The notes beneath the pieces were generated by a model. The model was not told the origin of the DNA, did no database searches, and saw nothing but the letters and a program-made list of their open reading frames with translations. Made by a program: the position numbers and the translations under genes. Shown piece by piece: positions 9,253-34,963 of a DNA stretch of 64,000 bases. Source of the DNA: Chryseobacterium flavum (lineage in GTDB: Bacteria > Bacteroidota > Bacteroidia > Flavobacteriales > Weeksellaceae). Location: contig NZ_QNUE01000001.1 in the NCBI RefSeq assembly GCF_003385595.1, positions 186,001 through 250,000 of the forward strand, written 5' to 3'. The stretch's first letter is position 1, and every line of letters begins with the position of its first letter.

Positions 9253-10185
9253 TTAGCCAATATGCTTTTTAAAGAATGGTATAATTTGCTCAATTGCCTT
9301 GCCCGTAGCTTCTTTTCCGTCATACAGGTCATAGTGGCTTGCTCCCTGAACAACCTGAATGGTTTTTTGCTTTGAAGCAGCTTTATCAAACAGTTCAAAT
9401 CCGTCCCTGTATGAACCAAACGCACCTACTTTATCGCCGATTACTACGTGAAGCGGCTGCGTAAGTAATAAATCTGCCAAATGGAAGGCATCGAATGCCA
9501 TCGCTTTATCCAAGCTGTCCACACGCAAATGGTTCGGGGAGTTCGGATGCTGCGCTCTCGGTGTCTGGTAATAATCAACGGCTTCAACAACATCAATATC
9601 GTTTATTCCTGCTGCTTGCCTTTCTTCCTGTGAGTTTGGTCTGTAAACTGTAATAGCAGGTTCGGCACCTCTTGCCTGTGCGGTACGTTGCTTTGCAATC
9701 CCCTCCAGTGTTTTGATGGCTGCATCGGTAGTAAAGTCGCCCTCACGAAGTAAACGACCATAATTTGCACCCACAACCGTCACAACAGCCTTAAATCTTC
9801 TTTCGGTCATTGCAGCATTGGCAGCATAGCCACCGCCGCCACATACGCCTAAAACACCTATTTTTTCTTCATCAATATAGTTTAACGTAGTCAAAAAGTC
9901 TGCTGCACAACGAAAGTCCTCTATACGGGTTGCGGGGTCTTCTAAAAATCTTACTTCGCCGCCGCTTTCGCCCTGATTGGAAGCGTCAAAAGCCAGTGTA
10001 ATAAAACCTGCTTCCGCCAATGCCTTACCGTAGATGTTTCCGGCTGTCTGTTCTTTACAACTGCTGATTGGATGCGCACAAACAATTGCCGGATATTTTT
10101 TAGTTTCATCAAAGTCTTTCGGGAACTGCAATATGCCTGCTACTTCCCAATTCCTGTTTTTGAATTTTACTGCTTTCATTGTCAT
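9253..10185 (-). CDS. Alpha/beta hydrolase with a Cys nucleophile elbow (dienelactone-hydrolase-like)
   Basis: The 310-residue protein has the hydrolase fold, with an oxyanion region (IVCAHPISSCKEQ) and a lid/insertion in the middle. The nucleophile elbow reads GVCGGGGY with Cys115 where most relatives have Ser, as in dienelactone hydrolases. The acid and base are probably the Asp in VVIGDKVGAF and the His in GASHYDLYDG. It lies with an AraC regulator gene between mobC and mobB on the same strand and looks like a two-gene cargo insert. Substrate is unknown. Starts at 10185 and 10179 (MKAVKF) are both possible. Confidence 0.8.
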   Translation of the reverse strand: MTMKAVKFKNRNWEVAGILQFPKDFDETKKYPAIVCAHPISSCKEQTAGNIYGKALAEAGFITLAFDASNQGESGGEVRFLEDPATRIEDFRCAADFLTTLNYIDEEKIGVLGVCGGGGYAANAAMTERRFKAVVTVVGANYGRLLREGDFTTDAAIKTLEGIAKQRTAQARGAEPAITVYRPNSQEERQAAGINDIDVVEAVDYYQTPRAQHPNSPNHLRVDSLDKAMAFDAFHLADLLLTQPLHVVIGDKVGAFGSYRDGFELFDKAASKQKTIQVVQGASHYDLYDGKEATGKAIEQIIPFFKKHIG

Positions 10186-10271
10186 TTATCTTTAAAAGTT
10201 ATTGAACAGTACAAAGATATTTCAAGCTGAAAGCTATCTGCTTAAAGTAATTACGGGAAGACTTTAACTAA

Positions 10272-11135
10272 TTACTGATTTCTGAAAACACTGGGAGAAA
10301 TACCTGTTTCCTTTTTAAAGAACGTTGCAAAGTAAGATGGGTATTCAAACCCTAAGCTGAAAGCAATTTCACTCACGCTTAATGACGTTGTCCTTAATTT
10401 GTTCTTGGCAATCTGTATCAACAGTTGATGTATATGTTCCTGTGGCGAACGACCTGTGTAGTGCTTGATTAAGTCGCCAAAATAGTTGGAAGACAGGTTA
10501 GCCATGTCCGAAAAATAAGAAACTGATGGGACTTTCAGCGCATTCTGCTCATCGTGGTAATAGGCTTCAAGATTTTTATAAAAATCAGCTACGGTAGTGT
10601 TATACAATTCCTCCCTCGTATCAAATTGCCTGCTGTAAAACTTTTGAATGTAGGACAGGATAAGCGAAGCATAGTGAATGACAATGTCTTTTGAGAAATG
10701 CTCATTCCCCTCAAATTCATTCAGTGCTTTTTTGAAAAGGTCAGTAATAATCTGCTCTTCTTCTTTAGTGATGAATAATGCTTCATGGTTACCGTAATAG
10801 GTAAAACTGTACTCTTTGGCAATCTTTCGGAACAGTCCTGCATCTATCAGAATATGATAGCCAGATATTTGATGCTCAATATCCCATTGAAGCAAATCGC
10901 CCGGTTGGTCAAGATAGACAAAGGCATCAGCCTGGTCAAATGTTGTCTGTCCAAAATTTTTGTCCTTGTCGTAGTCCAGTTTAATTGCCAGTAGATAAAA
11001 ATCAAGCTCGATAGGTGCTGATTTTCGCCTCATATCCTTTTGCTTTTGGTATTCCACCAAATGGATATGATTGTTCTTATACCCACTGATGTTGGTATAA
11101 TCCAAAAATTCTTTTATATCGTACTTTTTCTTCAA
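10272..11135 (-). CDS. AraC-family transcriptional regulator
   Basis: The 287-residue protein ends with the AraC double helix-turn-helix (SVSEIAFSLGFEYPSYFATFFKKETGISPSVFRNQ). Its N-terminal 170 residues form a ligand-binding domain of the kind often found next to hydrolase and oxidoreductase genes in Flavobacteriia. It is transcribed ahead of the hydrolase gene (86-base gap) and probably controls it. It is related in architecture but not close in sequence to the AraC gene at 6067. Confidence 0.88.
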   Translation of the reverse strand: MKKKYDIKEFLDYTNISGYKNNHIHLVEYQKQKDMRRKSAPIELDFYLLAIKLDYDKDKNFGQTTFDQADAFVYLDQPGDLLQWDIEHQISGYHILIDAGLFRKIAKEYSFTYYGNHEALFITKEEEQIITDLFKKALNEFEGNEHFSKDIVIHYASLILSYIQKFYSRQFDTREELYNTTVADFYKNLEAYYHDEQNALKVPSVSYFSDMANLSSNYFGDLIKHYTGRSPQEHIHQLLIQIAKNKLRTTSLSVSEIAFSLGFEYPSYFATFFKKETGISPSVFRNQ

Positions 11136-11282
11136 TGCTTTTTCTCTTAATATAATACAAATTTAGAAATTAGTAGGACTATGAGCTTTAAGTTTTCACT
11201 GAAAGACTTTCAATTTTTACAGTATAACTAAGAATGCTGATTAACTGCCATACGAATAAGGGAATTAGAATGAAATGGAAAA

Positions 11283-12575
11283 TCAAAGTTTTTTTCTCCG
11301 CTTCTTTTTCTTCATTCGTTTGGCAAAAGCCTGTTCTTCGTAATCCTCGGCCTGTGCTTCGGGCAGTAACCCACCAAAGCCATCAATCATTCCTGTATCA
11401 TCATTCGGTTGTTCTTTATTCAGGAAATCAAAAAGCTGGTGGGTTTCTTCCTTTTCATCTGCAACGTTTTTACCTGTGGTTGGTGCATCTGCGATGCTGG
11501 TCTGTTCCGCATTTTGGCGTTGCTCAACTGCCTGCTCTTTCCACCAATCATTAAAGACATTGGCAGAAATATTTTTGCCCAAAGCAGAACCGTTCCAAAC
11601 GGTACGGCTTTCATGGTCTATAAATGTCATACCATATATGCGCCCCTCATCATTGCGCCGAACAACAGTATTGATGCCTTGTTCCAAAAGTTGCCTTTTA
11701 AAATCCGTTTCATTAGTAGTTGTGTGCATAGCTGCCTCGATGGTGTTTTTCAACACGGCTCTTACCGGGCTATTTTTCATCTGCTCTTTAGATTGCATAA
11801 AATGTTCCTGCAAGGCTTCCAATCCTGCGTGTTTGCCAAAACGTGAAGCCTTAAAGGGATTGCTGGCTTTTTCTCCCTGTTCGTTCAGGGCAAAATACAC
11901 CAGCCCATTTTTGGGCTGTCCGTTCAGCTCGCCTTTCACTTCTTCCGCCGTAATATTAAAGAGGGAAAGCAACGCATTATACGTTCCGAGGCTTGGGTAT
12001 TTGTAATACTTCGGCAGGTGTCGTACCACCGAAGCAATTTGGCTCTTAACGTCTCCGGCTCTGTAATCCACCGGACGGAATACCTGCTCGTTGCCTGTGC
12101 TTTGTTTTTCCGTTGCGGATACAAGATTGTATCGCTGTTCTAAATCCCTGCAAATAGCCATTGACCGTGGATGGTCGTAACTATCCGGTATTTTCTTCCC
12201 GTCCAAACCCGTACAGACCGTTACGATATGGATGTGGGTGCGTTCAATATCGGTATGCTTAAAAACAATATAAGGTTGGTTGCCATATCCCATTTCCTGC
12301 ATATACAACTGTGCCATTTCCATAAACTGCGCATCGCTGACCCTATCCGCAGGATCAGGGTTCAGCGATATATGGCGCACTGGCTTTTCGGTTCTGATAT
12401 TTGCGGACAAATAAGGTTCAAAACGCTGGTGCAGGTAGCTGGTCGAATAGTTATTATCCAACCTTTCAGGTATCTTGTTCAATAGTAAAAACTGCCCTTT
12501 TTCCGTATCAATCTTCTGTTGGTTGTAAGAAATCGCACCGTACAAATTCTCACCCTTGCCAATCTTCGCTATCAT
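11283..12575 (-). CDS. mobB: MobB relaxase of the ICE
   Basis: The 430-residue protein starts at MIAKIGKGENLYGAISYNQ, one base after the mobA stop codon (TAA-A-ATG), which indicates translational coupling. The relaxase core has the three-His metal motif HTDIERTHIHIVT near residue 125 and an N-terminal Tyr region expected for the nicking residue. It cuts oriT and stays covalently bound to the transferred strand. The C-terminus is charged and ends with a Lys/Arg-rich tail (KRMKKKKRRKKL). The frame is open 17 codons further upstream, but that part overlaps mobA and does not look like the family. Confidence 0.9.
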   Translation of the reverse strand: MIAKIGKGENLYGAISYNQQKIDTEKGQFLLLNKIPERLDNNYSTSYLHQRFEPYLSANIRTEKPVRHISLNPDPADRVSDAQFMEMAQLYMQEMGYGNQPYIVFKHTDIERTHIHIVTVCTGLDGKKIPDSYDHPRSMAICRDLEQRYNLVSATEKQSTGNEQVFRPVDYRAGDVKSQIASVVRHLPKYYKYPSLGTYNALLSLFNITAEEVKGELNGQPKNGLVYFALNEQGEKASNPFKASRFGKHAGLEALQEHFMQSKEQMKNSPVRAVLKNTIEAAMHTTTNETDFKRQLLEQGINTVVRRNDEGRIYGMTFIDHESRTVWNGSALGKNISANVFNDWWKEQAVEQRQNAEQTSIADAPTTGKNVADEKEETHQLFDFLNKEQPNDDTGMIDGFGGLLPEAQAEDYEEQAFAKRMKKKKRRKKL

Positions 12576-12576
12576 T

Positions 12577-13014
12577 TTATTGGTCTTTGTGCAGGTGCTT
12601 TTTCTCAAATTCCTGTGCCAGTTCAATCACTTTCCGGCACAAGTCCGCCATTTCCGCTGTTTGCTTTTCCAGTTTAAAGAGATAAGCTGCTGCTTTTTTC
12701 TCCGAAAAATTACGGTACAATATCTTCACGATTTGATTGTAGTTCACACCAACCGCCCTGAACTGGCTGTAAAAATTAGTGAGCCGTGTATGAAACTCTA
12801 TGGCATCCATATCAATTTTTACGGTCTTTACTGTTTTCTGAAAGATGCAGGCGATAATAAAATGTGCCATTACTTTCATTCCCGATTGCTCGAACAAGCT
12901 CAGGAACTGTGCATTTTCCGTGTCGTTCAGGCTAATCGAATAGCGGTGGATAGCAGGGTCTTTCTTAGGCTTGCGACCACCTTTGCTAATTTGATTTCTT
13001 TTGTTGTCTTCCAT
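12577..13014 (-). CDS. mobA: MobA mobilisation accessory protein
   Basis: The 145-residue basic protein begins with a Lys/Arg-rich stretch (SKGGRKPKKDPAIHRYSI) and continues as a helical protein with the phrase AVGVNYNQIVKILYRNF. This is the usual ribbon-helix-helix-like accessory factor that helps the relaxase bind oriT in Bacteroidetes elements. It is the first gene of the mob operon, immediately downstream (on the minus strand) of the hairpin-rich region at 13081-13207 where oriT is expected. Confidence 0.85.
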   Translation of the reverse strand: MEDNKRNQISKGGRKPKKDPAIHRYSISLNDTENAQFLSLFEQSGMKVMAHFIIACIFQKTVKTVKIDMDAIEFHTRLTNFYSQFRAVGVNYNQIVKILYRNFSEKKAAAYLFKLEKQTAEMADLCRKVIELAQEFEKKHLHKDQ

Positions 13015-13080
13015 ATCTCTAATCCATTATAATTAAAATAAACCCCGACTTCGGAGGGCGTTTTCCGGCTCCATGCAATG

Positions 13081-13207
13081 GCAAGTTGTTTTTAGCTGCG
13101 GAAAGCATTTCGAGCAGCTAAAAACATAACTTGCTCTGTTCGGGTGAACAGAAAATCCGCCCTGCGGGACGGATTAAGTAAAGTAGAAAAAACGGCTTTG
13201 AGCCGTT
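13081..13207. other. Cluster of inverted repeats, candidate oriT
   Basis: Four hairpins lie in 127 bases. (1) 13081-13099 and 13114-13134 are 19- and 21-base arms that match except for two extra bases, around a 14-base loop. (2) TCTGTTC/GAACAGA with loop GGGT at 13135-13152. (3) AATCCGCCC/GGG-A-CGGATT around TGC at 13154-13175. (4) AACGGCT/AGCCGTT around TTG at 13191-13207. A conjugative origin is usually an inverted-repeat cluster beside the mobilisation genes, between mobA and traA in this family of ICEs. The exact nick site cannot be assigned from sequence alone. Confidence 0.6.
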
Positions 13208-13229
13208 CCACCTGTTCCCTGTTATCTGA

Positions 13230-13700
13230 AATGATTTCTCCATTCTTCTGTTGCATTTATGCAATTACAAAATAAGCGCAGCTTTCCCAAAGCATTGCAG
13301 TACGACATACTGCCAAACCCTGCCACTGAACGCCAAAACAGGACAGGTTTAATAAAGCGGGTATATATCTGCATTCCTTTGTATCAGCATCCGCTTTTAA
13401 CTGAATATGTATGTAGGAACGTGGCTACATAGCTATGTGAATACGGAAGCAGGCAAGTAACGATGTATGCGATTGGGTAAGCCTGTACAATATGATGTAA
13501 GCTGTTATGCAGATAAGCAGGTAAAAATGTACAGTTACATTTCCCTGCATACGGATATAAAACAGGATGTATGTTTTTACGAAAATACCAGCGTACAAAA
13601 GCCTGCAAATGAAAATATGCGGATGTGCCTATGTAATTACTTGGGTAATCAGCTATAAGAATATAGCAATACATAAACAAATGAATAATTAAAAACAGTT
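13230..13700. other. Non-coding gap before traA, rich in TGTA/TACA words
   Basis: No credible gene is seen here. From about 13400 to 13690 the words TGTA and TACA (including two TGTACA palindromes near 13490 and 13530) recur about a dozen times in roughly 290 bases. They lie directly upstream of a ParA-type gene. This could be a protein-binding or partition-like region or a long regulatory leader; nothing decides between these. Confidence 0.35.
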
Positions 13701-13706
13701 ACGCAC

Positions 13707-14474
13707 ATGGACACAAAGAAACAACCATTGTTTATCGCCTTTTCCTCCCAAAAGGGTGGTGTAGGCAAAAGCACTTTTACCACACTTGTTGCCAGTCTTC
13801 TTCATTATCGGCTTGGCTATAATGTAGTCGTCTTTGACTGCGATTTTCCCCAACACAGTCTGATGCAGATGAGGGCAAGAGATATGGGCAGCATTATGGG
13901 TAATGAGGTGTACAAAAAACTGGCTCATAAACAGTTTACGAGCATCAATAAAAAAGCCTATCCGGTTATGCAGCATCGGGCAGACGGTGTGCTGGATGAG
14001 GTAGCGCAATTCCTGCAATCTTCTTCCGTTCCGGTGGATGTGGTTTTCTTCGACCTGCCGGGTACGGTCAATTCCGCAGGGATATTGAAAACACTGGCGG
14101 GTATGCACCACATCTTTACACCCATTATCGCAGACCGTGTAGTCATGGAAAGCACCTTGATTTTTACACAGGTATTAAACGATGTTGTCCGCAAACAGGG
14201 CGCAACGGCTATCCAAAGCATCAACCTGTTTTGGAACCAGGTGGACGGCAGGGAAAAATCTGCTTTATACAACGTGTATGAAGACTTAATCAACAGCTTG
14301 GGCATCCACTTGATGGGTAGCCGTATCACAGATAGCAAGCGTTTCCGAAAAGAGGGGGAAGCCGAGGCAAAAACGGTCTTCCGCTCGACCTTGCTTCCTG
14401 CCGATGAACGGTTAATGAAAGCCTGCCGTTTGGATTTGTTTATGGAGGAATTTTTAAGAACCGTGAAATTGTAA
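13707..14474 (+). CDS. traA: TraA, ParA-type ATPase
   Basis: The 255-residue protein carries the deviant Walker A motif QKGGVGKSTF near residue 16, the Walker A' Asp in VVVFDCDFPQ and the Walker B-like FFDLPGT. These are the marks of ParA/MinD ATPases. In CTnDOT-type elements this gene is called traA and opens the transfer operon. Its role is thought to be regulation or positioning rather than channel formation. It is followed after 5 bases by traB. The upstream region is rich in TGTA/TACA repeats. Confidence 0.85.
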   Translation: MDTKKQPLFIAFSSQKGGVGKSTFTTLVASLLHYRLGYNVVVFDCDFPQHSLMQMRARDMGSIMGNEVYKKLAHKQFTSINKKAYPVMQHRADGVLDEVAQFLQSSSVPVDVVFFDLPGTVNSAGILKTLAGMHHIFTPIIADRVVMESTLIFTQVLNDVVRKQGATAIQSINLFWNQVDGREKSALYNVYEDLINSLGIHLMGSRITDSKRFRKEGEAEAKTVFRSTLLPADERLMKACRLDLFMEEFLRTVKL

Positions 14475-14479
14475 GCCCT

Positions 14480-14899
14480 ATGGAAAATGATAATAAAAGG
14501 AAAAACAAGCCGGAGATAGACGAGGAATTTTTGATGAACATTATCGCCGATGGCGTAAAAAAGGACGGTTTGAATATACCGCCCGAACCTCCTAAAAAAC
14601 AGGAAGCGGAAAAAGAGCCGGAAAAGCCAGTAAGCAGGGAAAGGAACCGTTCAAAAAAAGCCAGCGAAGCGGATTACGAAAAGCTATTTTTCAAAAGAGC
14701 GGAAACCAACGCCCGCAATGGAAAGTCGGTGTATATACGCCCCGATTTCCACGAAAGGCTTTCCCGTATCGTGCAGGTCATCGGTGAAGACAAGATAACG
14801 ATATATGCCTATCTCGATAACCTGCTGGAATATCATTTTCAGGAATTTGGCGAAGATATTACCAAAAGTTTCAATGATAAGTATAAACCCATTTTATAA
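14480..14899 (+). CDS. traB: TraB-like protein (DUF3408)
   Basis: The 139-residue protein has a charged, Pro/Glu/Lys-rich first half and a folded second half with the phrase SVYIRPDFHERLSRIVQVIGEDKITIYAYLDNLL, recognisable as the DUF3408 ribbon-helix-helix-like domain. In Bacteroidetes ICEs it follows traA. It probably binds DNA as a partner of the ParA-like protein. The gene is 5 bases from traA and 8 bases from the next gene. Confidence 0.75.
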   Translation: MENDNKRKNKPEIDEEFLMNIIADGVKKDGLNIPPEPPKKQEAEKEPEKPVSRERNRSKKASEADYEKLFFKRAETNARNGKSVYIRPDFHERLSRIVQVIGEDKITIYAYLDNLLEYHFQEFGEDITKSFNDKYKPIL

Positions 14900-14907
14900 G
14901 TACAGCT

Positions 14908-15546
14908 ATGGAAATTATAATAGTTATCTGCTTGCTCATTGTTATTGTGCTGTTGGCAAAGGACAAAATCATCATTAAAAAAGTGGTAAAGAGCAAGCCC
15001 CAGCAACCTATGGTAAATCCCGATTTACCGGAAATAATGGGGCAACCAAAACCAATAGAGCGACACATAGTGCCAACAACTGCCACAAAACGTCAATTGG
15101 TTGAACAGGACGATATACCTGATAATTTTGGAACAGAAACCTACGAAACAGGTTTTTCAAGGGAAATTCCGCAGGAAGAATTGGATGAAGTTTTCGGGAG
15201 TGAACCTGATTTTGATTTCGAGGATGAGGACGAAGAATGGGAAGAACAGGGATTACCGGACAGCGACAATGGGTTTGCCACAGGGGTTACCTTTGATGAG
15301 CTAAGTACCGTGGGGGCATTGTTACAGCAGGATGTGCTGGAACCTGCCTTGCAACAAAAAGCGGTCGATATAGTTCAGCGAATACAAGGAACCGAATTGT
15401 TTAGCTTGCTCGAAAACTCAATGGAGGGGGCTTCGCAAAAGATTGCAGCGTTGTTGGATAAGAGCCTCTCCACCGGAACGGATTTCAGTTCTTCCAATTT
15501 GCGGAATAAGGATTTAGAGGGTTTCGACATCGGGGAGTTTGTGTAA
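14908..15546 (+). CDS. TraD-like conjugal transfer protein
   Basis: The 212-residue protein has one N-terminal membrane helix (IIIVICLLIVIVLLA), then a short basic stretch and a long acidic region around residue 105 (FDFEDEDEEWEEQ). The C-terminal part is helical. It matches in position and architecture the protein called TraD in flavobacterial ICEs; its function is not known. The stop codon lies inside a perfect terminator hairpin (15533-15556). A second, degraded copy of its last codons is present at 17391-17443, which is direct evidence of recombination at this point. Confidence 0.65.
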   Translation: MEIIIVICLLIVIVLLAKDKIIIKKVVKSKPQQPMVNPDLPEIMGQPKPIERHIVPTTATKRQLVEQDDIPDNFGTETYETGFSREIPQEELDEVFGSEPDFDFEDEDEEWEEQGLPDSDNGFATGVTFDELSTVGALLQQDVLEPALQQKAVDIVQRIQGTELFSLLENSMEGASQKIAALLDKSLSTGTDFSSSNLRNKDLEGFDIGEFV

Positions 15547-15560
15547 GCAAACTCCCTTTT
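15533..15560 (+). terminator. Intrinsic terminator overlapping the traD-like stop codon
   Basis: Stem GGGAGTTTG/CAAACTCCC (9 perfect pairs) with loop TGTAAG containing the TAA stop, followed by TTTT. The same hairpin with one G-T pair recurs at 17416-17443, in the duplicated traD remnant. Confidence 0.75.
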
Positions 15561-15562
15561 GT

Positions 15563-16363
15563 TTATATCGCTTTATCAAGCCTTTTATGAATGTAGAATA
15601 TAGTGTTCAAAATATCCAAAGCCTCATCTTCGGTGATTTCAAATTTTATTTTAGGTTCATGTGCCGTAGAGTTTCTGATTAAGCCAAACATACCTTTAAT
15701 TAAATTACATAATCCTAAATGCTCGCTTCTATCTGTATCTGTTTTTAGGTGATTAATTTTAACCAAAGGATTACTGGTAGAAAATGCTGTTTCTGCCAAC
15801 GCATTACCATCTGCATAAAGTCCGGTCATTGTCCTTAAACGGTCTGCAATACTTTTGGTAGCCTCAAAGACTGAATGAAAGTAGTTTTCAACCAATAATT
15901 CAGCTTTGCAATATTCAAATACCGCAGCATGAACATTTCTGTTTTCCAACTTATGTTTTAAACGGCTGGCACGTTGTTCAGCTTCTGCGATTGTTGTAGC
16001 CTTTTCAACCAATCTGAATTTACCTTGTTCTGTAAATTCTGTACCTATAAATGCTAAACGTTTATTAACCTCTAATCTACGATTATGAAAAATTTCTTCT
16101 TTTCCAATGTATCGCACAGGTTGCAAAGCATCTTGCACAAATCTTAGTATATGATTTGAGCATTGGTTTTTATTCTGCCAATCAGCAAATGCCGAAAACA
16201 GCCTTCTCCATTTTGTGTTTTGAGGGTCAATATCTGGAATGTTTGAGTTTAAAAGAATTTGCCCTATTTCCGTGCCTGTTAAACCATCCGAAGTATCTCC
16301 AATAGTTCTACATAATCCCTCCAATACGTGTGCTTCAAACATTGGACGTTTAATACTTGCCAT
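15563..16363 (-). CDS. HEPN-type TIGR02391 (Ymh) family protein, candidate defence RNase
   Basis: The 266-residue protein resembles the TIGR02391/Ymh family. Near the C-terminus it has GLIRNSTAHEPKI; Arg230 and His235 form the Rx4H motif typical of HEPN ribonucleases, within a two-helix context. The middle (residues about 105-200) is helical. Relatives occur in phage-defence islands and Abi systems. It is 29 bases downstream of the phospholipase-D-like gene on the same strand, so the two probably form one operon. Both are embedded between tra genes on the opposite strand and are richer in A+T than them, which suggests acquired cargo. Confidence 0.6.
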   Translation of the reverse strand: MASIKRPMFEAHVLEGLCRTIGDTSDGLTGTEIGQILLNSNIPDIDPQNTKWRRLFSAFADWQNKNQCSNHILRFVQDALQPVRYIGKEEIFHNRRLEVNKRLAFIGTEFTEQGKFRLVEKATTIAEAEQRASRLKHKLENRNVHAAVFEYCKAELLVENYFHSVFEATKSIADRLRTMTGLYADGNALAETAFSTSNPLVKINHLKTDTDRSEHLGLCNLIKGMFGLIRNSTAHEPKIKFEITEDEALDILNTIFYIHKRLDKAI

Positions 16364-16392
16364 TATTATTTTTTCATTTATTTAGAAAATCG

Positions 16393-17196
16393 TTATTTAA
16401 TAAGACTGATAAATTCGGCAGCATATTTCTCTGCCAACTCACGGCTATTTTCAACACTTGCTGTTTCTCTGTTCCAGTTCGCTTTTGTTGTCCAATTATA
16501 TGACCCATGAATAATTGTCTTTAAATCAATAATGCAAAACTTATGGTGCATTATATTTTCATATTTCCCGTTTTTGGGAACTCTTTTTGTTTCAAAATAC
16601 TTTTCATAATCGAAGCCATATTTCGTATTAATCTCATCGTCTAAAACAACAACACGAACGTTAATACCTTCTTGCTTTCGATTGTATAGCTCCCTCATTA
16701 GTGTTTTGTTTGTAAACCACGCTACCGCTACCCAAATAGAAAATTTCGCAGCTCGAATTTGCTCAACAATCTGCGCCTCTATATCCTCAAAATGAACTTC
16801 CACTTCAATATTTTCCGGCAAGTCCGCACCTATAATTTTATACTTTCCCTCGAAATCTTCAAGTCGATAACCATCCTGTTGTAAGAGTGGGTTAATTTGT
16901 TCTACTGCTGCCTTTATATCTTTTGAAGTGTCTTGGGCAAAATGTCTTGGGTCGAAGACTACCTGCAATAGCTGAACCATCTCTTTTCGACCATTTATTT
17001 CATATAATTTTTCTAAAACATACGCATTTCGGCTAAGACTATTTGGCATCCCACCGTCACCATATTTATAAACGTCTTTGAACCCAACGTGATTAAACAG
17101 TTTCAAAATTTTTTCACCTGTTAATCGTGGTGTTAAATGATTATCACCTGATATAAATTCCTTTATGCTTTCTATTGTTAAGTCCGAAAGTTTCAT
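16393..17196 (-). CDS. AbiJ-NTD-like plus phospholipase D-like nuclease
   Basis: The 267-residue protein has an N-terminal domain (about 20-90: GEKILKLFNHVGFKDVY and SRNAYVLEKLYEINGR) resembling the N-terminal domains of AbiJ-type abortive infection proteins. A PLD-type domain follows from about residue 130. One HKD motif is visible: His217, Lys219, Asp224 (HHKFCIID), followed by GSYNWT. Single-HKD proteins usually act as homodimers, often as nucleases. Its partner gene downstream encodes a HEPN-like protein. The AbiJ-NTD assignment is by eye and tentative; the PLD assignment is firm. A role in phage or plasmid defence is inference from both domains and context. Confidence 0.6.
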   Translation of the reverse strand: MKLSDLTIESIKEFISGDNHLTPRLTGEKILKLFNHVGFKDVYKYGDGGMPNSLSRNAYVLEKLYEINGRKEMVQLLQVVFDPRHFAQDTSKDIKAAVEQINPLLQQDGYRLEDFEGKYKIIGADLPENIEVEVHFEDIEAQIVEQIRAAKFSIWVAVAWFTNKTLMRELYNRKQEGINVRVVVLDDEINTKYGFDYEKYFETKRVPKNGKYENIMHHKFCIIDLKTIIHGSYNWTTKANWNRETASVENSRELAEKYAAEFISLIK

Positions 17197-17305
17197 GTTC
17201 TATTAAAGTAAATATTATTAGTGCTAAAATAACATAAACTAATTTTATAGAGAAGATAAGCCACTTTGTAACATGATTTAGACACTCCTAATGGTTTCCT
17301 AAAAC

Positions 17306-17390
17306 GCCACTCACTGCCAAGTAATTCCACTGAAAGACACATCATTATTACGCCTTGTTTTTCCTGACACTTTTGTCCCTAAAGCCCGCA
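17306..17390. repeat. Left copy of 85-bp direct repeat flanking the Gabija-like module
   Basis: This 85-base segment matches 21899-21983 with six substitutions. The right copy is the leader just upstream of traE. So this copy is a displaced traE leader. It is joined directly to a degraded traD-like 3' end at 17391. Confidence 0.9.
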
Positions 17391-17443
17391 CGAAGTTGAA
17401 GGATTTCGACATGGAGGAGTTTGTGTAAGCAAACTTCCTTTTT
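17391..17443 (+). pseudogene. Remnant of a traD-like 3' end with its terminator
   Basis: In frame from 17397 this codes for LKDFDMEEFV and TAA, parallel to LEGFDIGEFV at the end of the intact gene at 15546. The terminator hairpin around the stop codon is also conserved (GGAGTTTG ... CAAACTTCC and T5). No upstream part of the gene remains. It reads as the left border of a second cargo insertion. Confidence 0.8.
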
Positions 17444-17456
17444 ATCTATGGTAAAT

Positions 17457-19388
17457 TTAAGCGACTGCAATCACGTTATCATTCCCAAACCATACTTTAG
17501 CTTTAGCTATTACTTGCGGGTCAGGATTATGAAAAAAAACTGCTAAACTTTCTTTAGCCCTTGTACAACAAACATAAAATATCTTTTGAGTTCTATCCAA
17601 TACACTTGCCGAGCCTGTTTCTAAAAAAAGATTTCCGAAATTGTAATTGTTCCAACCTCCATTATCAAGTATCACCAAGACGTTATTAAATTCAGCACCT
17701 TTAGTTTTATGCTGTGTTGAAAAGGGTGTTTGTCCTTCTAAATATTCGTATAGTTTCTGAAATTCACTAAACTTGACATCCTTTACACGGTTGTACAAAT
17801 ACTCTTTTTTATCCTTAAAATCAATGAGCTTGTCATCAATCAAACAAATACCTTTTTCATTAGCATCGTTAATTACGTCTTCAATCGTTTTTTCTCCAAC
17901 ATTTACAAGGCTTTCAATATTTTCTTTTAATGCCCTTTTGCTTGCTATACTTACTATTCTAAAACGATAGTCGGTGGCTCTTAGAAACTCGTTATACTTT
18001 TTACTCTGATACAGAAAAATGTTAGTTTGAATTTTGAATAAGTGTTTTATCAGATTATCTCTTTTTGAACCTTTCTTATTTTCATCGTTTTCATCTTGCT
18101 TTTTATCATCAATGAGAGCATCTTTATTCAAATAGATTTTTCTTACTTCCGAAAACGGCTTATCCTTTAATTGATTATAAAGCTCTGCTTTTAAAGGGTC
18201 AGCCATTATAATATCCTTTTTTAATTGCTTCTGTCTGTTTTTTAATTGAAACTTATCTACAACAACATCAAAAGTATCATCGTCATTGATTTCGACTTCT
18301 GGCTTGTTGTTTTTCTTGTTGTATTTAATCTTTTCAAGTATTTCAGATTTCAAGCCAATAATGGGGTCGTCATCATAAATATCCATTAGGGTTCTAAAGC
18401 CAGCTTTACCTGCTATTAAATTGTGAGTAAGGTTCAGTTCCTTTGTTTCTTTTGAATTATTGAAATCCCATTGATAGTTTTCTTCCAGGAACTTTTCAAC
18501 CTTACTAATATCTCCATCCGTAGAATGTAAAAATAAAACAGTGCCTTGCTTTACAACACCATCGACCATATTAGGTGCTTTAGGGTCAATGGATGGCTCT
18601 TGCGTTATCCCGTCTGTCCTTAGTTTATTAGCTAAGTCAATTACAAGTTGAGGATTTCTTCTATTTTGTTTTTTCGGAATTTCATTCACAGTATCCGCAT
18701 CGTTTCCTTTGTATTCATCTAAATTCCCAATGCCATCTTCATAAATTGATTGCATCGCATCACCAAAAAAACCAATAATATTTTTCCTTTCGCTTTTCTT
18801 GAAATGAGTTAGAAATGTATCTACAACATCTTTACTTGTATCTTGATACTCATCAATAAAAATGAATTTGTATTTATCTTTTACTATACTACTTAGTTTA
18901 GGATATTTCTCGAATAGGTAATTGGCAACTACAAGTAATTCATCATGAGAAATTATCCCTTCACGTAACCTTACAAATTCTTTATACTGTATTCCATCTG
19001 GCAAAAGGTCAAAGTATGTGTCGGGAATGGGATGTACATCCTCAATTGAAATCTTGCTAACCTCTTCATTATTCGCCAAAGAAATGATAGCCTCTTTAAG
19101 CTCCTTTTGAAAATGTTTTATATTATCCCACAAAAAGTCGTGTATCGTAGATACATTCAGGTTCTTGTGGTTTACTCTTTCTTCGATTTCCTTTACTGCC
19201 GCATTGGTGTATGTCATGCAGGCTACTTTTGCCGTTGGATATTCTGCAATTACCTGACGAATGACACTTACCAGTGAATAAGTTTTGCCACTTCCTGCTC
19301 CGCCGCTTAAAAGAAAATTTCTCCCATTGTCAATTGATTGAAGAATTTCTTGTACTTCGGGTTCTAAACTTAATCTTCCTTCAACCAT
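17457..19388 (-). CDS. UvrD/PcrA-type superfamily 1 helicase, Gabija GajB-like
   Basis: The 643-residue protein has the UvrD helicase motifs in order: Walker A LLSGGAGSGKTYSLV (residues 27-41), motif II FIFIDEYQDTSKD near residue 175, and the C-terminal motifs HKTKGAEFNNVLVILDN near 556 and VCCTRAKESLAVFF near 610. I chose ATG at 19386-19388 (MVEGRLS); it overlaps the end of the upstream ATPase gene by 19 bases. An OLD-TOPRIM ATPase plus a UvrD helicase is the composition of the Gabija defence system. This protein is longer than typical GajB (about 500), with extra charged segments in the middle. Confidence 0.78.
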   Translation of the reverse strand: MVEGRLSLEPEVQEILQSIDNGRNFLLSGGAGSGKTYSLVSVIRQVIAEYPTAKVACMTYTNAAVKEIEERVNHKNLNVSTIHDFLWDNIKHFQKELKEAIISLANNEEVSKISIEDVHPIPDTYFDLLPDGIQYKEFVRLREGIISHDELLVVANYLFEKYPKLSSIVKDKYKFIFIDEYQDTSKDVVDTFLTHFKKSERKNIIGFFGDAMQSIYEDGIGNLDEYKGNDADTVNEIPKKQNRRNPQLVIDLANKLRTDGITQEPSIDPKAPNMVDGVVKQGTVLFLHSTDGDISKVEKFLEENYQWDFNNSKETKELNLTHNLIAGKAGFRTLMDIYDDDPIIGLKSEILEKIKYNKKNNKPEVEINDDDTFDVVVDKFQLKNRQKQLKKDIIMADPLKAELYNQLKDKPFSEVRKIYLNKDALIDDKKQDENDENKKGSKRDNLIKHLFKIQTNIFLYQSKKYNEFLRATDYRFRIVSIASKRALKENIESLVNVGEKTIEDVINDANEKGICLIDDKLIDFKDKKEYLYNRVKDVKFSEFQKLYEYLEGQTPFSTQHKTKGAEFNNVLVILDNGGWNNYNFGNLFLETGSASVLDRTQKIFYVCCTRAKESLAVFFHNPDPQVIAKAKVWFGNDNVIAVA

Positions 19389-21451
19389 AATAAACCATTT
19401 TTTATATATGCTGGAATATCCCAATTGCTAAAGTCCTTATCACTGTGATATAAAATATCCAATGCAAAGTGAGTTTTCTTTTTAATACAGGAGCCTGCTA
19501 ATGAATAGGCATCATTGGCAGCCTCGTCAAATAACTTTCTATTTTGTAATCCCTGAAATTCATCTTTTTTGCCATTTACAAAAGCACGGTTAATATGAAT
19601 AAATGCATCCTCGAAACTCCTTGCATGATATGCATTTTCTTCCTGCTGATAGCATATACAAACCGTAGAACTTCCAACAAGAATTGTTCTATTTGCGACA
19701 GGCAATGTCTTTAAATCATCCCAAACAACTTCTTTCAAAAAATGATTGATTGCAGAATTGCTTGTTTTTGTTCCCTCATTGACGGGGCAAGCACCCCAAA
19801 CATCTTGCCCTTTGTGGTCTTTCTTTACAACTTTAATGGCATCAATATCCGTTAATATCAAAGATTTAATACCTAAAAAGTCAATAAATTTTTCAAAGAT
19901 TTGGGAATATGCGCCCACTTCAATTATTGATATATTTTGGGATAATAGCGGAAGAAAAGTGTCCTCTTTACCCTCTGCCTTTAGGCGAGCAGCTTCTTCC
20001 AAATCAACTTTTCGCATAAAGGTTGGTATCAATATCCTTTCTGTGTCGCCTTCAATCAAAACGGCTTTATCTGCAAAGAAAATTTCAGCCCTGCTTATTG
20101 TTAAATATTGTTTTAGAAATTGATATTGGCTTGGGTCGGCATCGTATTGCTTTCTTAAATCCGAAAGATTTTTTGCAACAACATTATTTTTATTCTCCGA
20201 TTTCAAGTATTTAATATCATCAAAATCACTATCTGCAACAATATGGGACGAATGGGTAGTAATGATATATTGTAAGGGTCTTTTTATTCCGTCATCCCGC
20301 TTAATACCTTCAGCAAGCAATTTCTTTATATTCTTTATAAAGACATACTGCATTTGTGGATGAGTATGGGCTTCCGGCTCTTCGATAATTAGTAAATTAA
20401 TGTCCGCTGGCCTTTTGTCTTTATCTCTTTTGAAATCCTGGACAAGAATTTCAATTTCAAAAATCATACTTATAAGGTTCATGTAACCTAAGCCATTGTA
20501 ATGTTCAGGTAGCTTATGGTCATCATGAGTATATACTACGGTTGTATTTCCTTCAAGTAGTTCCCTGTGTTGCAGTGTTGAAATTATTGCTATATCAGTG
20601 TCATTCAGTTTTATTCCTCCGAAGTCTTGTACTTTTTTAATTACATCACTGAACAGGTCTTTGTATATTTCGCTTAATGTACTATCAGTTTCAGAAAGCT
20701 GGTCTTTAAAATTTTCAGTAGCTTGATTTTTTTCGCTGTTATCCTCCTGCTTTTTATAAAGACTGGATGTTTGTTTTGATAAGGTATTTTCCTTCTCCTT
20801 ATTGGTTACATCTCGTCTTGCACTAATGTATTTGAAGCCAATTATATCTTTAATGGCAATACCTTCACTTTCAAGGTCTATAAAATTAGCATCATTAACT
20901 TTATTAGTAGCCATATCATACTCAAAAGACATTTTATGGGTATGGAAATAGTTATCTAATCCTTGCTTTAAAAATTCTTTAATCTCGCCGGGTTTATTTT
21001 TCTTTTTTGCATCAACTTTTCCCTTTTCATTTGCTTCAAAAGCGGCATAGTCGGTTTTGACTTTAAAAAAATCAGTGTAGGTTACCGTATATTCAAATCC
21101 CAATACAATTTTGTTATTGTCCGGGTCTAAATCCATCAAAACTCTACTAACATTTGATAAATCATCTTTCTCGTTGTATTCAATAAATATTTTTAGTTTG
21201 ATGCCTTTGGGTGTAAATTCTTCGGGAATAGCCCCTGATTTTATAAGAGCTTCTAATTCGTTTTTGAAATCAATATTAAAATCATCATAAGAAAATTTAC
21301 TTTTCTCGTTCAGGAACTTGTCAAGAACGGAAAGGATAGAGGTTTTTCCCGTATTGTTTTTCCCGATAACTAAGGAGAGGTCTTCCTCCAAATCCATTGA
21401 AAAATTCTTTAGTAGGCGAAAATTTTCAACTTCAATTTTTATAATCTTCAT
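19370..21451 (-). CDS. OLD-family ATPase with TOPRIM nuclease domain, Gabija GajA-like
   Basis: The 693-residue protein has Walker A at residues 30-37 (GKNNTGKT), the signature/Walker B region LLIIEEPEAHTHPQMQ near 353, and then a TOPRIM domain with the catalytic Glu in VLIEGDTERILIP near 466 and the DxD in LILTDIDAIKV near 534. OLD proteins of class 2 pair with a UvrD helicase; GajA is the DNA-nicking member of Gabija. The gene overlaps the helicase gene and is 22 bases after an XRE regulator gene, so the three form one operon. Length is above typical GajA (about 580). Gabija is the best fit, but other OLD-based systems are possible. Confidence 0.78.
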   Translation of the reverse strand: MKIIKIEVENFRLLKNFSMDLEEDLSLVIGKNNTGKTSILSVLDKFLNEKSKFSYDDFNIDFKNELEALIKSGAIPEEFTPKGIKLKIFIEYNEKDDLSNVSRVLMDLDPDNNKIVLGFEYTVTYTDFFKVKTDYAAFEANEKGKVDAKKKNKPGEIKEFLKQGLDNYFHTHKMSFEYDMATNKVNDANFIDLESEGIAIKDIIGFKYISARRDVTNKEKENTLSKQTSSLYKKQEDNSEKNQATENFKDQLSETDSTLSEIYKDLFSDVIKKVQDFGGIKLNDTDIAIISTLQHRELLEGNTTVVYTHDDHKLPEHYNGLGYMNLISMIFEIEILVQDFKRDKDKRPADINLLIIEEPEAHTHPQMQYVFIKNIKKLLAEGIKRDDGIKRPLQYIITTHSSHIVADSDFDDIKYLKSENKNNVVAKNLSDLRKQYDADPSQYQFLKQYLTISRAEIFFADKAVLIEGDTERILIPTFMRKVDLEEAARLKAEGKEDTFLPLLSQNISIIEVGAYSQIFEKFIDFLGIKSLILTDIDAIKVVKKDHKGQDVWGACPVNEGTKTSNSAINHFLKEVVWDDLKTLPVANRTILVGSSTVCICYQQEENAYHARSFEDAFIHINRAFVNGKKDEFQGLQNRKLFDEAANDAYSLAGSCIKKKTHFALDILYHSDKDFSNWDIPAYIKNGLLWLKED

Positions 21452-21473
21452 AATGGCTGTTTATCGTATTTAA

Positions 21474-21770
21474 TTAGTTTTTACTGTTCCCCTCTCTCAT
21501 TCTTTTTTGTGTCATTTTTAACGCTTGTTCAGCTAATGGCTCGTCTCGCAATAATTCGGTCATTTTATCCGACAGCCACAAAATCAATAGTTCGTCCAAT
21601 TGTACATTCAGAAATTCAGCGAGCCTTTCCAAATGCTTTCTCGGTAAAAGTCTTTCTTCATTTTCCACCTTGCTGATAAAAGCGTTATCCAACTGTAAAG
21701 CGGCTCCAACCTCTCGTAGAAACAGCCCTTTACTTTCTCTCAATTCTTTTATGCGTTTACCAAGTGCCAT
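21474..21770 (-). CDS. XRE-family HTH regulator of the Gabija-like operon
   Basis: The 98-residue protein has a Cro/C1-type helix-turn-helix: GKRIKELRESKGLFLREVGAALQLDNAFISKVENEER, followed by a short tail. It is the first gene of the operon with the OLD ATPase and the helicase. Such small regulators often restrain defence genes. Canonical Gabija loci do not carry one, so this is a regulated variant or a cargo-specific addition. A TAAATTTG element (minus strand, complement of 21801-21808) upstream could be its -7 box. Confidence 0.85.
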   Translation of the reverse strand: MALGKRIKELRESKGLFLREVGAALQLDNAFISKVENEERLLPRKHLERLAEFLNVQLDELLILWLSDKMTELLRDEPLAEQALKMTQKRMREGNSKN

Positions 21771-21898
21771 TTTGATTTTTTAAGACTTGTCTAAATAAAT
21801 CAAATTTAAGCAAAACAATGCAATAATCTATAAGCCAAGTAACAGTATATGAGATTACAGTAAGGCAATTAAAAATGTACTAAAAATTCTTAGACACT

Positions 21899-21983
21899 GC
21901 CACTCACTGCCAAGTAATTCCACTGAAAGACATATCGTTATTGCGCCATGTTTTTCCTGACACTTTTGTTCCGAAAGCCCGCA
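21899..21983. repeat. Right copy of 85-bp direct repeat (traE leader)
   Basis: Same sequence as 17306-17390 with six substitutions, located 39 bases upstream of traE. This is the native copy, since it stands in front of the intact transfer operon. Confidence 0.9.
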
Positions 21984-22022
21984 AAGAGCGGGAAAACAGA
22001 AACAAATTAATGTGTTTAAATC

Positions 22023-22328
22023 ATGGAAAAACAAAGAAAAAAAGTATTGCTGACAGGCTTAGGGTTACTGTCAGCATTTGGTGTGTTCGCACAGGGCAAC
22101 GGCTCGGCTGGTATCAATGAAGCCACGCAGATGGTAACAAGCTACTTTGACCCTGCAACCCAACTCATCTATGCGATTGGTGCAGTCGTGGGGCTTATCG
22201 GAGGCGTGAAAGTGTACAATAAATTCAGCAGTGGTGACCCTGACACATCTAAGACGGCGGCAAGCTGGTTCGGAGCCTGTATTTTCTTAATCGTTGCAGC
22301 TACTATCCTGCGTTCATTCTTCCTTTAA
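22023..22328 (+). CDS. traE: TraE (DUF4134)
   Basis: A 101-residue membrane protein with an N-terminal signal or membrane helix (LLTGLGLLSAFGVFAQG) and two further hydrophobic helices (LIYAIGAVVGLIGGVKVY and ASWFGACIFLIVAATILRSF). This is the VirB2-like, DUF4134 protein that opens the main transfer operon in CTnDOT-type elements and probably forms pilus or channel subunits. It is 11 bases from traF. Confidence 0.9.
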   Translation: MEKQRKKVLLTGLGLLSAFGVFAQGNGSAGINEATQMVTSYFDPATQLIYAIGAVVGLIGGVKVYNKFSSGDPDTSKTAASWFGACIFLIVAATILRSFFL

Positions 22329-22339
22329 TCCATAGCCCT

Positions 22340-22672
22340 ATGAGTAGTTACAATATCAATAGAGGCATTGGAAGAACGGTTGAGTTCAACGGACTGAAAG
22401 CACAATATCTGTTCATTTTCGCAGGCGGTTTGCTCGGTATGCTAATCCTCGTGATGGTTATGTACATGGCAGGCGTAAACTCTTACGTGTGCCTGTTCAT
22501 CGGAGCTGGTGGCGCATCGCTCATCGTATGGCAAACATTCGCACTCAACGGTAAGTATGGCGAACACGGGTTAATGAAAGTCGGCGCAAAAAAAAGGCAT
22601 CCGAAATATATCATTTGCCGCAAAGCTATACACCGCTATTTGAAGTTAACCGCTAAACACAATGCCGTATGA
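22340..22672 (+). CDS. traF: TraF (DUF4133), VirB3-like
   Basis: A 110-residue protein with two adjacent membrane helices (YLFIFAGGLLGMLILVMVMY and VCLFIGAGGASLIVWQTFAL) and a basic C-terminus. It is the VirB3-like inner membrane component (DUF4133). Its stop overlaps the traG start (ATGA), as expected for a VirB3/VirB4 pair. Confidence 0.9.
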   Translation: MSSYNINRGIGRTVEFNGLKAQYLFIFAGGLLGMLILVMVMYMAGVNSYVCLFIGAGGASLIVWQTFALNGKYGEHGLMKVGAKKRHPKYIICRKAIHRYLKLTAKHNAV

Positions 22673-25176
22673 GAAACACAGCAAAAGCCACAACGCTTGA
22701 AAGCAAGTTTCCATTACTGGCGGTGGAACACAATTGCATCATTTCAAAGGATGCGGACATTACGGCTTGCTTTCGGGTACACTTGCCCGAACTATTTACA
22801 GTAGCATCACCAGAGTACGATGCCATTCATTCGGCATGGCACAAGGCAATTAAAACCTTACCCGATTTCTCCATCATCCACAAACAGGACTGGTTTATCA
22901 AAGAAAATTATGCACCTGATATTGCACAGGATGGATTGAGTTTTTTAGCGAAATCTTACCAGCAACATTTCAACGAACGTCCCTTTCTCAACCATTACTG
23001 TTACCTCTTCCTGACCAAAACCACAAAAGAACGGATGCGGATGCAGAGCAACTTTAGTTCGCTTTGCAAAGGTGTTCTTATCCCGAAAGAAATAAGGGAT
23101 AAAGAAGCCGTTCGCAGATTTATGGAAGCGGTGGCACAGTTTGAGCGCATCATGAACGATTGCGGGTTTGTGAAACTGGAACGACTGACCGAAGATGACA
23201 TTATCGGTACAGATGACAAACAGGGATTGCTGGAACAATACTTTACCCTGTCAAGGGAAACGGGAACAGCCATGCAGGACATCGCTCTCGGTTCAGAAGA
23301 TGTGCGTATTGGCAACAAAAGGTTGTGCCTGCACACCCTTTCAGATACGGACGATTTGCCCGGAACGGTATCGGCAAACACCCGCTACGAAAAACTGTCA
23401 ACTGACAGAAGTGATTGCCTGTTGTCCTTTGCTGCTCCGGTGGGCTTGCTTCTTAGCTGTAACCATATCTACAACCAGTATTTGTTTTTGGATAACAGTG
23501 ATGAGAACCTGCGCAAGTTTGAAAAATCCGCACGTAATATGCACTCGCTGGCAAGGTACAGCAGGGCTAATCAGATTAACAAAGAATGGATTGAAAAGTA
23601 CCTGAACGAAGCGCACAGCTTCGGGCTTTCCTCCATTCGTGCGCACTTCAATATAATGGCGTGGTCGGACGACCCGAACGAACTCAAACAGCTAAAGAAC
23701 GATACAGGTAGTGCGCTGGCTTTAATGGAATGCAAACCACGCCACAATACCGTTGATGTTGCCACGCTGTATTGGGCAGCTATGCCGGGCAATGCGGGCG
23801 ACTTTCCCGCAGAGGAAAGTTTTTATACGTTCATTGAGCCAGCCTTGTGCTTCTTCACCGAAGAAACCAATTACCAAAGTTCGCCCTCACCGTTCGGTAT
23901 CAAGATGGCAGATAGACTAACGGGTAAACCTATCCATTTGGATATTTCCGACCTGCCCATGAAACGGGGTATCATCACGAACCGCAACAAATTTATTTTG
24001 GGGCCATCAGGTTCGGGTAAATCTTTTTTCACTAATCACATGGTGCGGCAATACTACGAACAGGGCGCACACGTCCTGCTCGTGGACACGGGTAATTCCT
24101 ATCAGGGATTATGTGAGTTGATTAAAGGAAAGACCAAAGGCGAAGACGGTGTTTACTTTACCTATACCGAAGACAATCCTATTGCATTCAATCCATTTTA
24201 TACGGACGATGGTGTATTTGACATTGAGAAAAGGGAAAGTATCAAAACGCTCATCCTTACCCTATGGAAGCGTGATGACGAACCGCCGAAGCGTTCGGAA
24301 GAAGTGGCATTGTCCAATGCCGTGAGCGGCTACATAGACCGTATCAAACAAACCGATGAATACCCATCATTCAACGGCTTTTATGAGTACGTGAAAGGTG
24401 ATTACAAAAATGTGCTGGAAGAAAAACAGGTACGGGAAAAAGATTTTGACCTCGCAAATTTCCTGAACGTACTCGAACCTTATTACAAGGGCGGAGAGTA
24501 TGATTACTTGCTCAATTCAGATAAGCAACTCGACCTGCTTTCCAAACGCTTTATCGTGTTTGAAATTGATGCGATTAAAGACCACAAAATTTTATTCCCA
24601 ATCGTGACCATCATCATCATGGAGGTCTTCATCAACAAGATGCGCCGATTGAAAGGTGTGCGTAAGCTGATACTGATTGAAGAAGCGTGGAAAGCGATTG
24701 CGAAAGAGGGCATGGCAGAATACATCAAGTATTTGTTTAAAACTGTCCGCAAATTTTTTGGTGAAGCCATCGTGGTTACGCAGGAAGTGGACGACATCAT
24801 CCAGTCGCCCATCGTAAAAGAAAGTATCATCAATAACTCCGACTGCAAAATCCTGTTAGACCAACGCAAGTACATGAACAAGTTCGATGACATTCAGGCG
24901 ATGCTCGGACTTACGGAAAAGGAAAAATCACAAATCCTTTCTATCAATATGAACAATGATGCAAGCCGACTTTACAAAGAGGTATGGATTGGCTTGGGCG
25001 GTACGCATTCCGCAGTGTATGCCACAGAAGTTAGTGTTGAGGAATATTTAGCCTACACCACGGAGGAAACCGAAAAAATGGAAGTGATGCAGCTTGCCCA
25101 CGAACTGGACGGCAATGTGGAGCAAGCCATTAAGCGTATCGCCCTCCAAAGACGTGAAAAAACAAATAATTATTAA
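22669..25176 (+). CDS. traG: TraG, VirB4-type conjugation ATPase
   Basis: The 835-residue protein has Walker A LGPSGSGKSFF near residue 444 and Walker B LILIEEAWKAIAKEG near residue 667. It ends with a conserved motif region (EVDDIIQSPIVKESIINN). It is the main ATPase of the type IV channel, located at the inner membrane face. The length is standard for Bacteroidetes TraG. Translation is coupled to traF through a 4-base overlap. Confidence 0.95.
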   Translation: MRNTAKATTLESKFPLLAVEHNCIISKDADITACFRVHLPELFTVASPEYDAIHSAWHKAIKTLPDFSIIHKQDWFIKENYAPDIAQDGLSFLAKSYQQHFNERPFLNHYCYLFLTKTTKERMRMQSNFSSLCKGVLIPKEIRDKEAVRRFMEAVAQFERIMNDCGFVKLERLTEDDIIGTDDKQGLLEQYFTLSRETGTAMQDIALGSEDVRIGNKRLCLHTLSDTDDLPGTVSANTRYEKLSTDRSDCLLSFAAPVGLLLSCNHIYNQYLFLDNSDENLRKFEKSARNMHSLARYSRANQINKEWIEKYLNEAHSFGLSSIRAHFNIMAWSDDPNELKQLKNDTGSALALMECKPRHNTVDVATLYWAAMPGNAGDFPAEESFYTFIEPALCFFTEETNYQSSPSPFGIKMADRLTGKPIHLDISDLPMKRGIITNRNKFILGPSGSGKSFFTNHMVRQYYEQGAHVLLVDTGNSYQGLCELIKGKTKGEDGVYFTYTEDNPIAFNPFYTDDGVFDIEKRESIKTLILTLWKRDDEPPKRSEEVALSNAVSGYIDRIKQTDEYPSFNGFYEYVKGDYKNVLEEKQVREKDFDLANFLNVLEPYYKGGEYDYLLNSDKQLDLLSKRFIVFEIDAIKDHKILFPIVTIIIMEVFINKMRRLKGVRKLILIEEAWKAIAKEGMAEYIKYLFKTVRKFFGEAIVVTQEVDDIIQSPIVKESIINNSDCKILLDQRKYMNKFDDIQAMLGLTEKEKSQILSINMNNDASRLYKEVWIGLGGTHSAVYATEVSVEEYLAYTTEETEKMEVMQLAHELDGNVEQAIKRIALQRREKTNNY

Positions 25177-34214: not shown

Positions 34215-34401
34215 TTCTTTAGTGTTTAATCGTGATTTGAATTGATTTTTTTTCTGATTTATTCGGTAATGAGAGGAGGTGCTGTTTCGTTTCATTACCA
34301 TTTCCAATGCTGTTAATCTTCATGCTTGACATTTTTTTTATTCGTCTAAAGAGCCGGAGTATGCTATGTTTCGTTTCACGAGCAGTTTAGGTTAGTGTTT
34401 A

Positions 34402-34936: not shown

Positions 34937-34963
34937 TCCAGTAGAACAAGAAAAGTTGTTGTG

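Follow-up and report, generated by a model that had tools for sequence, protein, structure and literature searches.

How did two sets of defence-type genes come to stand in tandem between traD and traE of a conjugative element, with part of a second traD gene between them? The question is posed by a 64,000-nt stretch of the Chryseobacterium flavum genome (Bacteroidota; Weeksellaceae; RefSeq assembly GCF_003385595.1, contig NZ_QNUE01000001.1, positions 186,001–250,000), the whole of which we refer to as the window. Its transfer genes follow a CTnDOT-like order, and traG (22669–25176, plus strand) encodes a TraG family conjugative transposon ATPase that scores 1663.1 bits against TIGR03783, for which the cut-off is 261.55. 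A preliminary description proposed that two copies of an integrative and conjugative element (ICE), carrying different cargos at the same position, had recombined. We find that the traD–traE gap is a cargo slot common to many elements, and that both cargo units exist unstacked elsewhere. Our preferred reading, to which we assign a probability of about 75%, is that the gap is an insulated ICE cargo slot, and that the second unit was captured by recombination that used homology on the leader/traE side but was probably illegitimate at traD.

Two cargo units meet at a traD scar

The slot is bordered on the left by an intact traD-like gene (14908–15546, plus strand) and on the right by traE (22023–22328, plus strand; DUF4134, PF13572, 1.3e-39). 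The traD-like gene is named by its position: its protein matches no Pfam or NCBIfam family at E 0.01, and as a query it identifies a homologue at the equivalent place in 188 of 208 TraE units. The 3′ end of traD holds the first copy of a 43-nt direct repeat (15518–15560, plus strand), with the stop codon inside a terminator-like hairpin. The second copy (17400–17442, 91% identical) again spans a traD stop and hairpin, and belongs to a foreign traD 3′ tail (17391–17443, plus strand), which we call the scar; the stop codon that had been claimed for this tail is present at 17426–17428, along with a terminator-like hairpin. Immediately before the scar lies copy 1 of the traE leader (17306–17390, plus strand), comprising the first 85 of 124 nt. 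It is 93% identical to positions 21899–21983, retains the GCCA repeats and the −7-like box, and is cut by the scar inside the hairpin loop. The true leader has GCCA repeats, a −7-like A..TTTG box and a hairpin, and is the predicted promoter of traE onward; the preliminary description located it correctly but ended it at 21983, whereas the conserved leader reaches the start of traE (21899–22022, plus strand, 124 nt). The order that had been proposed, namely traD end, HEPN/PLD module, leader joined to traD end, Gabija module and leader, is confirmed at base level.

The 85-nt and 43-nt pairs are the two largest direct-repeat families found by a repeat finder within 12000–24000, and no Rfam family reaches its gathering score in 13000–23000, leader included. 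The 4.47-Mb source genome contains two copies of the leader and two of the traD tail, all at the slot locus (E ≤ 0.001). The idea of a mobile repeat recurring at unrelated loci is ruled out for the source genome by this absence of further copies, and also by the matches of such tails to traD coding sequence. It could still be argued, since each cargo lies between one direct-repeat pair, that a site-specific or transposable cassette uses the repeats as its attachment sites. However, the traD tails of the arrays described below vary in length and match the traD coding sequence of relatives, the repeats have no other copy in the genome, and none of the five cargo genes in the window matches a recombinase family in PADLOC, Pfam or NCBIfam. 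We consider the cassette explanation largely refuted and highly improbable.

The traD–traE gap is a cargo hotspot

We compared traD–traE intervals from the window and 237 collected loci. Together these contained 208 TraE units, 188 of them with a full TraD, which yielded 158 distinct intervals and, after dereplication, 127; L136, a 1-kb filler, was excluded from the counts. The remaining 20 TraE units were dropped because the fetched stretch held no full TraD, in some cases at a contig end and in others with a longer gap; long intervals are therefore under-represented. The 127 intervals range from 162 to 11,757 bp, with a median of 3,619 bp; 119 exceed 500 bp and are referred to as occupied, and 8 are at most 350 bp. 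Three other gaps among the tra genes served as controls: the median is 5 bp between traA and traB (0/121 units above 500 bp), 11 bp between traE and traF (3/127) and −1 bp between traF and traG (0/88). The borders of the slot are shared, with the first open reading frame (ORF) starting no more than 100 bp from the traD stop in 95 of the 119 occupied intervals, the last ORF ending before the leader in 110, and conservation of the leader beginning near −124 from the traE start. The traD–traE gap thus combines a fixed position, variable content and shared borders, and the three control gaps are not variable in this way. We conclude that it is a cargo hotspot, as the preliminary description had suggested, and that it carries many defence-type genes.

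The cargo comprises 404 ORFs in 155 single-linkage clusters. We scanned representatives of about 54 clusters with profiles (52 listed clusters, accounting for 227 ORFs, and clusters 3 and 14 by way of the window genes), and assigned defence membership to each cluster through its representative rather than member by member. On this basis, a PADLOC-matched cluster is present in 68 of the 119 occupied intervals. Since some loci had been fetched as matches to the window cargo, the sample picked by TraG gives a fairer figure: 37 of 70 occupied intervals (76 in all). The matched systems are Gabija, type I and type IIG restriction, Septu, long and class II pAgo, Iet, Shedu, Hachiman, SIR2-HerA, Avs2, Avs3, Qat, Tmt and candidate (PDC) systems. 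Some of the cargo is not of defence type: a single uncharacterised family is all that 25 intervals hold among ORFs of at least 110 aa, and a few intervals contain genes that by eye resemble metal resistance genes.

The commonest occupant is the uncharacterised cluster 0 family, whose 39 members occur in 35 of the 127 intervals, all on the tra strand, and form the first gene after traD in 33. The one representative scanned has no PADLOC or Pfam match. The AlphaFold model of a cluster 0 protein (L072:8339-9154) has a pLDDT (predicted local distance difference test) of 88.8 and no fold match at E 0.001.

Promoter-like and terminator-like elements flank the slot

Aligned upstream of traE, the leaders share a consensus that begins with a sharp 5′ edge at about −124 and contains GCCA repeats, the A..TTTG box and a hairpin. 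The box is found in 125 of 127 leaders, against a mean of 16.3 in shuffled leaders that preserve base composition only. The leader agrees only partly with the Bacteroidota −7 promoter pattern, the fuller form of which occurs in 7/127. Of 180 leader matches in the collected loci, 178 stand immediately before TraE; as these loci had been retrieved by their matches to TraG, the leader or the cargo, the figure applies to this set and not to whole genomes. At the other border, a terminator-like hairpin is present at the traD stop in 81/127 intervals, compared with a mean of 28.9 after shuffling dinucleotide blocks. These features suggest that traD and traE belong to two insulated transcription units, separated by a gap that tolerates inserts. 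As traD would end in its own terminator and traE would start from its own leader, DNA could enter the gap without cutting off the transfer genes.

Both units have unstacked relatives

The preliminary description held that single-cargo relatives, with one traD end and one traE leader, would support its model. Such relatives exist for both cargos. The Ymh and PLD genes of the first unit stand alone in five dereplicated intervals (L117, L138, L148, L150 and L152), and gajB, gajA and the XRE gene of the second stand alone in two (L119 and L267), in the order traD, Gabija, XRE, leader, traE. In three further loci (L118, L125 and L162), Gabija adjoins traD, and type IIG restriction genes and an XRE gene come after it. 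Locus L155, which represents the same place as L138, comes from genome G916 of the Chitinophagaceae, the family that also includes the genome of L011. It is colinear with the window over 11301–17390, departs at the scar and resumes at 21899, and its single leader aligns to both leader copies of the window. Hence the window differs from L155 by one insert, of 4,593 bp by repeat spacing, that is bounded by the leader repeat and starts with the foreign traD tail. The claimed join at 17390/17391 is exact: L155 departs there, and the Gabija-bearing relatives begin to match at 17396–17402, inside the second traD tail.

We considered whether the same arrangement could result if a single element had undergone a tandem duplication and then exchanged one of its two cargos. 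Both leader copies are equally near the G916 leader (95.3% identity), as a duplication would predict. The second traD tail, however, is 91% identical to the element's own traD end and about as near those of L166 (90%) and L224 (89%), and the second unit has unstacked relatives elsewhere; we give a duplication little probability.

In a Cyclobacterium metagenome-assembled genome (G325:C89, 27.7 kb and 103.7 kb; L132 and L123), about 76 kb of a single contig separates the traD end from the PLD–leader–traE part. This spacing reflects either a very large insert or a rearrangement.

Stacking is general and traD scars are occasional

Six of the 119 occupied intervals contain a second traD 3′ end, and these six represent five independent events: the window, L006, L046, L054 and L204/L211, the last two being near-identical and counted as one. 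Each of the six was matched by 20–110 traD-tail queries, and L041, matched by one query, was discarded as noise. Decoys searched against the same 119 intervals gave no match for the 5′ part of traE, one for mid-traD (one query, 35 nt) and seven intervals for a decoy placed at traF (each with 1–6 queries, 23–47 nt). A terminator-like hairpin is present at the scar of the window and at the four other scars tested (4/4). The four other elements with a traD-tail scar also speak against an assembly artefact in the window, which belongs to a draft genome of 40 contigs; moreover, since the repeats differ by 7–9%, they are not an exact repeat that was mis-joined. An artefact is scarcely credible.

The stacked contents vary. 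L006 holds PDC-M68 and then pAgo; L046, a four-gene set including QatA (the only gene of the set that was scanned) and then pAgo; L204, the uncharacterised family and then Iet and more; and L054, PDC-S02 followed by uncharacterised genes. For three of these arrays, the second unit has unstacked relatives whose match extends over the traD stop: L006 (L223, from 137 nt upstream), L046 (L223 and L042, from 59–63 nt upstream) and L204 (L217 and L181, from 47–48 nt upstream). The first unit of L006 is alone in the slot in L227, L257, L198, L022, L270 and L012; the first unit of L204 has a match in L188.

By our own grouping, 21 intervals hold several systems, and five of these contain a traD tail (the window, L006, L046, L204 and L211). 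No traD tail was seen at the joints of L071 and L262 that we inspected, and leader remnants without a traD tail occur in L194/L264 (36 nt) and L045 (97 nt). Stacking in the slot is general, and the traD scar is occasional.

Proposed capture of the second unit

We propose that a resident unit consisting of traD, the HEPN/PLD pair and the leader received from another element a second unit consisting of a traD tail, Gabija, the XRE gene and a leader. The right side would have been joined by homology in the leader/traE region, and the left side probably without homology, within the resident leader (at position 85) and the donor traD tail. The terminator-like hairpin of the imported tail should stop transcription from leader copy 1 about 50 nt on. 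Short tails may be those that survive, because longer traD duplications would recombine away. At least two TraG matches are present in 46 of 134 TraG-bearing genomes of the host family (counted by hand), indicating that co-residence of elements is common.

In a rival account, two whole ICE copies in the same chromosome recombined unequally, one supplying everything left of the scar and the other everything right of it; this account differs from our proposal solely in the place of the right-hand switch. Many genomes hold several such elements, a Sphingobacterium cavernae genome carries elements of either cargo type (L117 with cargo 1 and L118 with Gabija), and recombination between co-resident ICEs of the SXT/R391 family has been demonstrated experimentally (PMC2786100). 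Against this, the traE side of the window is nearer L155 (85.6% identity), L161 (87.1%) and L175 (86.2%) than the Gabija elements L119, L162, L118 and L125 (78–80%). That the traE side is closer to the cargo-1 type than to known Gabija elements favours, without proving, a switch back inside the leader; the objection vanishes if a Gabija donor of the same clade existed. We regard exchange between whole copies as a tentative alternative, at odds below even. The two-ICE recombination of the preliminary description is supported overall and fits the data, but not as to the exact event, for which capture of a fragment or insertion of a circle fits too.

For the latter, a circle containing leader positions 1–85, the traD tail, Gabija, the XRE gene and the leader would have entered the resident leader by one homologous, Campbell-type crossover. 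The product would be identical, with one 4,593-bp repeat-to-repeat unit between leader copies. However, neither the circle nor a free joint of this kind was seen, and BLAST at E 0.001 detected no leader copy at the joint of L006, L046, L054 or L204, so this route would not explain them. We consider it decidedly unlikely.

Several observations weigh against capture with an illegitimate left joint in an insulated slot. The absence of shared sequence at the left joint was judged by eye. The six sites at which the leaders differ do not assign parents, and both copies are equally near one relative. No Gabija donor was found in DNA searches of a phylum sample of 395 genomes, three family samples of 394, 399 and 397 genomes and a plasmid collection, matches within this slot being 71–83% identical; more similar Gabija genes (91% DNA identity; L120, G362:C65:48005-51993) come from a genome of another family and have no tra genes in 18 kb. 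The hairpin background is high, at about 23% in shuffles, and the hairpins of the four other scars were scored without a shuffle control. A leader copy at the traD scar was detected in the window and in none of the other four elements by the same BLAST search, and the collected set includes no relative of either the L046 first unit or the L054 second unit. Finally, 16 of the 21 multi-system intervals lack a traD scar, indicating that scarred stacking is one route and not the sole route.

A more far-reaching version of our proposal is that the traD tail with its terminator is a portable insulator kept by selection: the left border would be renewed at each capture, stacking could continue, and the short repeats would let RecA drop either unit. 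We consider this unlikely.

Cargo genes and other features of the element

The first cargo consists of a Hypoth_Ymh gene (15563–16363, minus strand; PF09509, 1.5e-36) and a gene for a PLD-like domain protein (16393–17196, minus strand; PF13091, 1e-21). The Ymh protein matches PD-Lambda-3_B of PADLOC (8.3e-82) over residues 5–265 of 266, and is HEPN-type by a weaker match to Aga_HEPN (2.3e-10). We do not file the pair as PD-Lambda-3, since no match to PD-Lambda-3_A was obtained for its PLD member at E 0.01. The Ymh gene is 91% identical at the DNA level in elements with other partner genes (for example, L004:4902-5702), where the shared match stops at the start codon (window position 16363), a pattern of partner swapping inside the module.

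The second cargo, previously called Gabija-like, is Gabija by profile. It consists of gajB, encoding a UvrD-like helicase (17457–19424, minus strand; PADLOC 2.5e-237), and gajA, encoding an ATPase with an OLD-like TOPRIM domain (19370–21451, minus strand; PADLOC 5e-289; PF13175 (AAA_15) and PF20469). Both genes are present and adjacent, with near full-length profile matches, and the module may protect against phage. It differs from Gabija in carrying beside gajA a gene for an XRE/Cro-type regulator (21474–21770, minus strand; PF01381, 2.5e-9), which adjoins the leader and also occurs with unrelated cargos. This family (cluster 3) is found in 12 intervals, adjoins the leader in 11 of them, and accompanies cargos that include Gabija, type IIG restriction–modification and SIR2-HerA; it may act as a regulator common to different cargos or as an anchor for recombination on the right-hand side. 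In the relative L162, gajA is divided over two ORFs (10105–12185).

CTnDOT-like elements have a tyrosine recombinase as their integrase. The window encodes a large serine recombinase (34961–36556) whose end overlaps a tRNA-Lys gene. Also present are an ArdA antirestriction gene (33681–34307) and a gene for a protein with DUF4280 and a Tox-REase-5 domain (38955–40472).

Relation to known hotspots

The closest known case is that of the SXT/R391 ICEs, which have five intergenic hotspots (HS1–HS5) in the transfer backbone with near-identical borders and variable content, the variable genes including restriction–modification systems (Wozniak 2009, PMC2791158). HS2 extends from just behind the traA stop codon to a point 79 bp short of s054. 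Nested inserts occur in HS5, remnants of older inserts remain at borders, and each insert adds permissive sites (PMC2791158). The traD–traE slot resembles these hotspots in its fixed intergenic site, shared borders and variable cargo, and differs in element family, phylum and site; the accessible text makes no mention of a transfer-gene 3′ end left standing between cargos (PMC2791158). Formation of SXT × R391 hybrid ICEs depends on recA and on ICE-coded Bet/Exo-like genes (Garriss 2009, PMC2786100). These hybrids likewise show that recombination of co-resident ICEs yields new combinations, but the joint in the window has no visible homology on one side.

CTnDOT/ERL-type and other Bacteroidota ICEs, such as those of Riemerella, have tra genes of the same kind as the window element. 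In the accessible text on ICERanRCAD0133-1 of Riemerella, traABD forms one cluster and traEFG... another, a split that fits the same gap, and restriction–modification cargo is reported, but the traD–traE gap is not presented as a cargo slot (PMC6491836). The phrase 'between traD and traE' occurs in no paper of the literature searched, which lies mostly outside subscription journals. We conclude that the traD–traE slot is a hotspot of the SXT/R391 kind in another phylum, with the retained traD tail a variant that we have not found described.

The slot is a specific, testable site at which conjugative elements of the Bacteroidota gather anti-phage systems, and the partial traD 3′ end between cargos is a fossil mark of defence islands growing by stacking and not by replacement. 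With more than half of the occupied TraG-picked intervals matching known or candidate systems after about one-third of the clusters were scanned, the slot is also a place to seek new ones.

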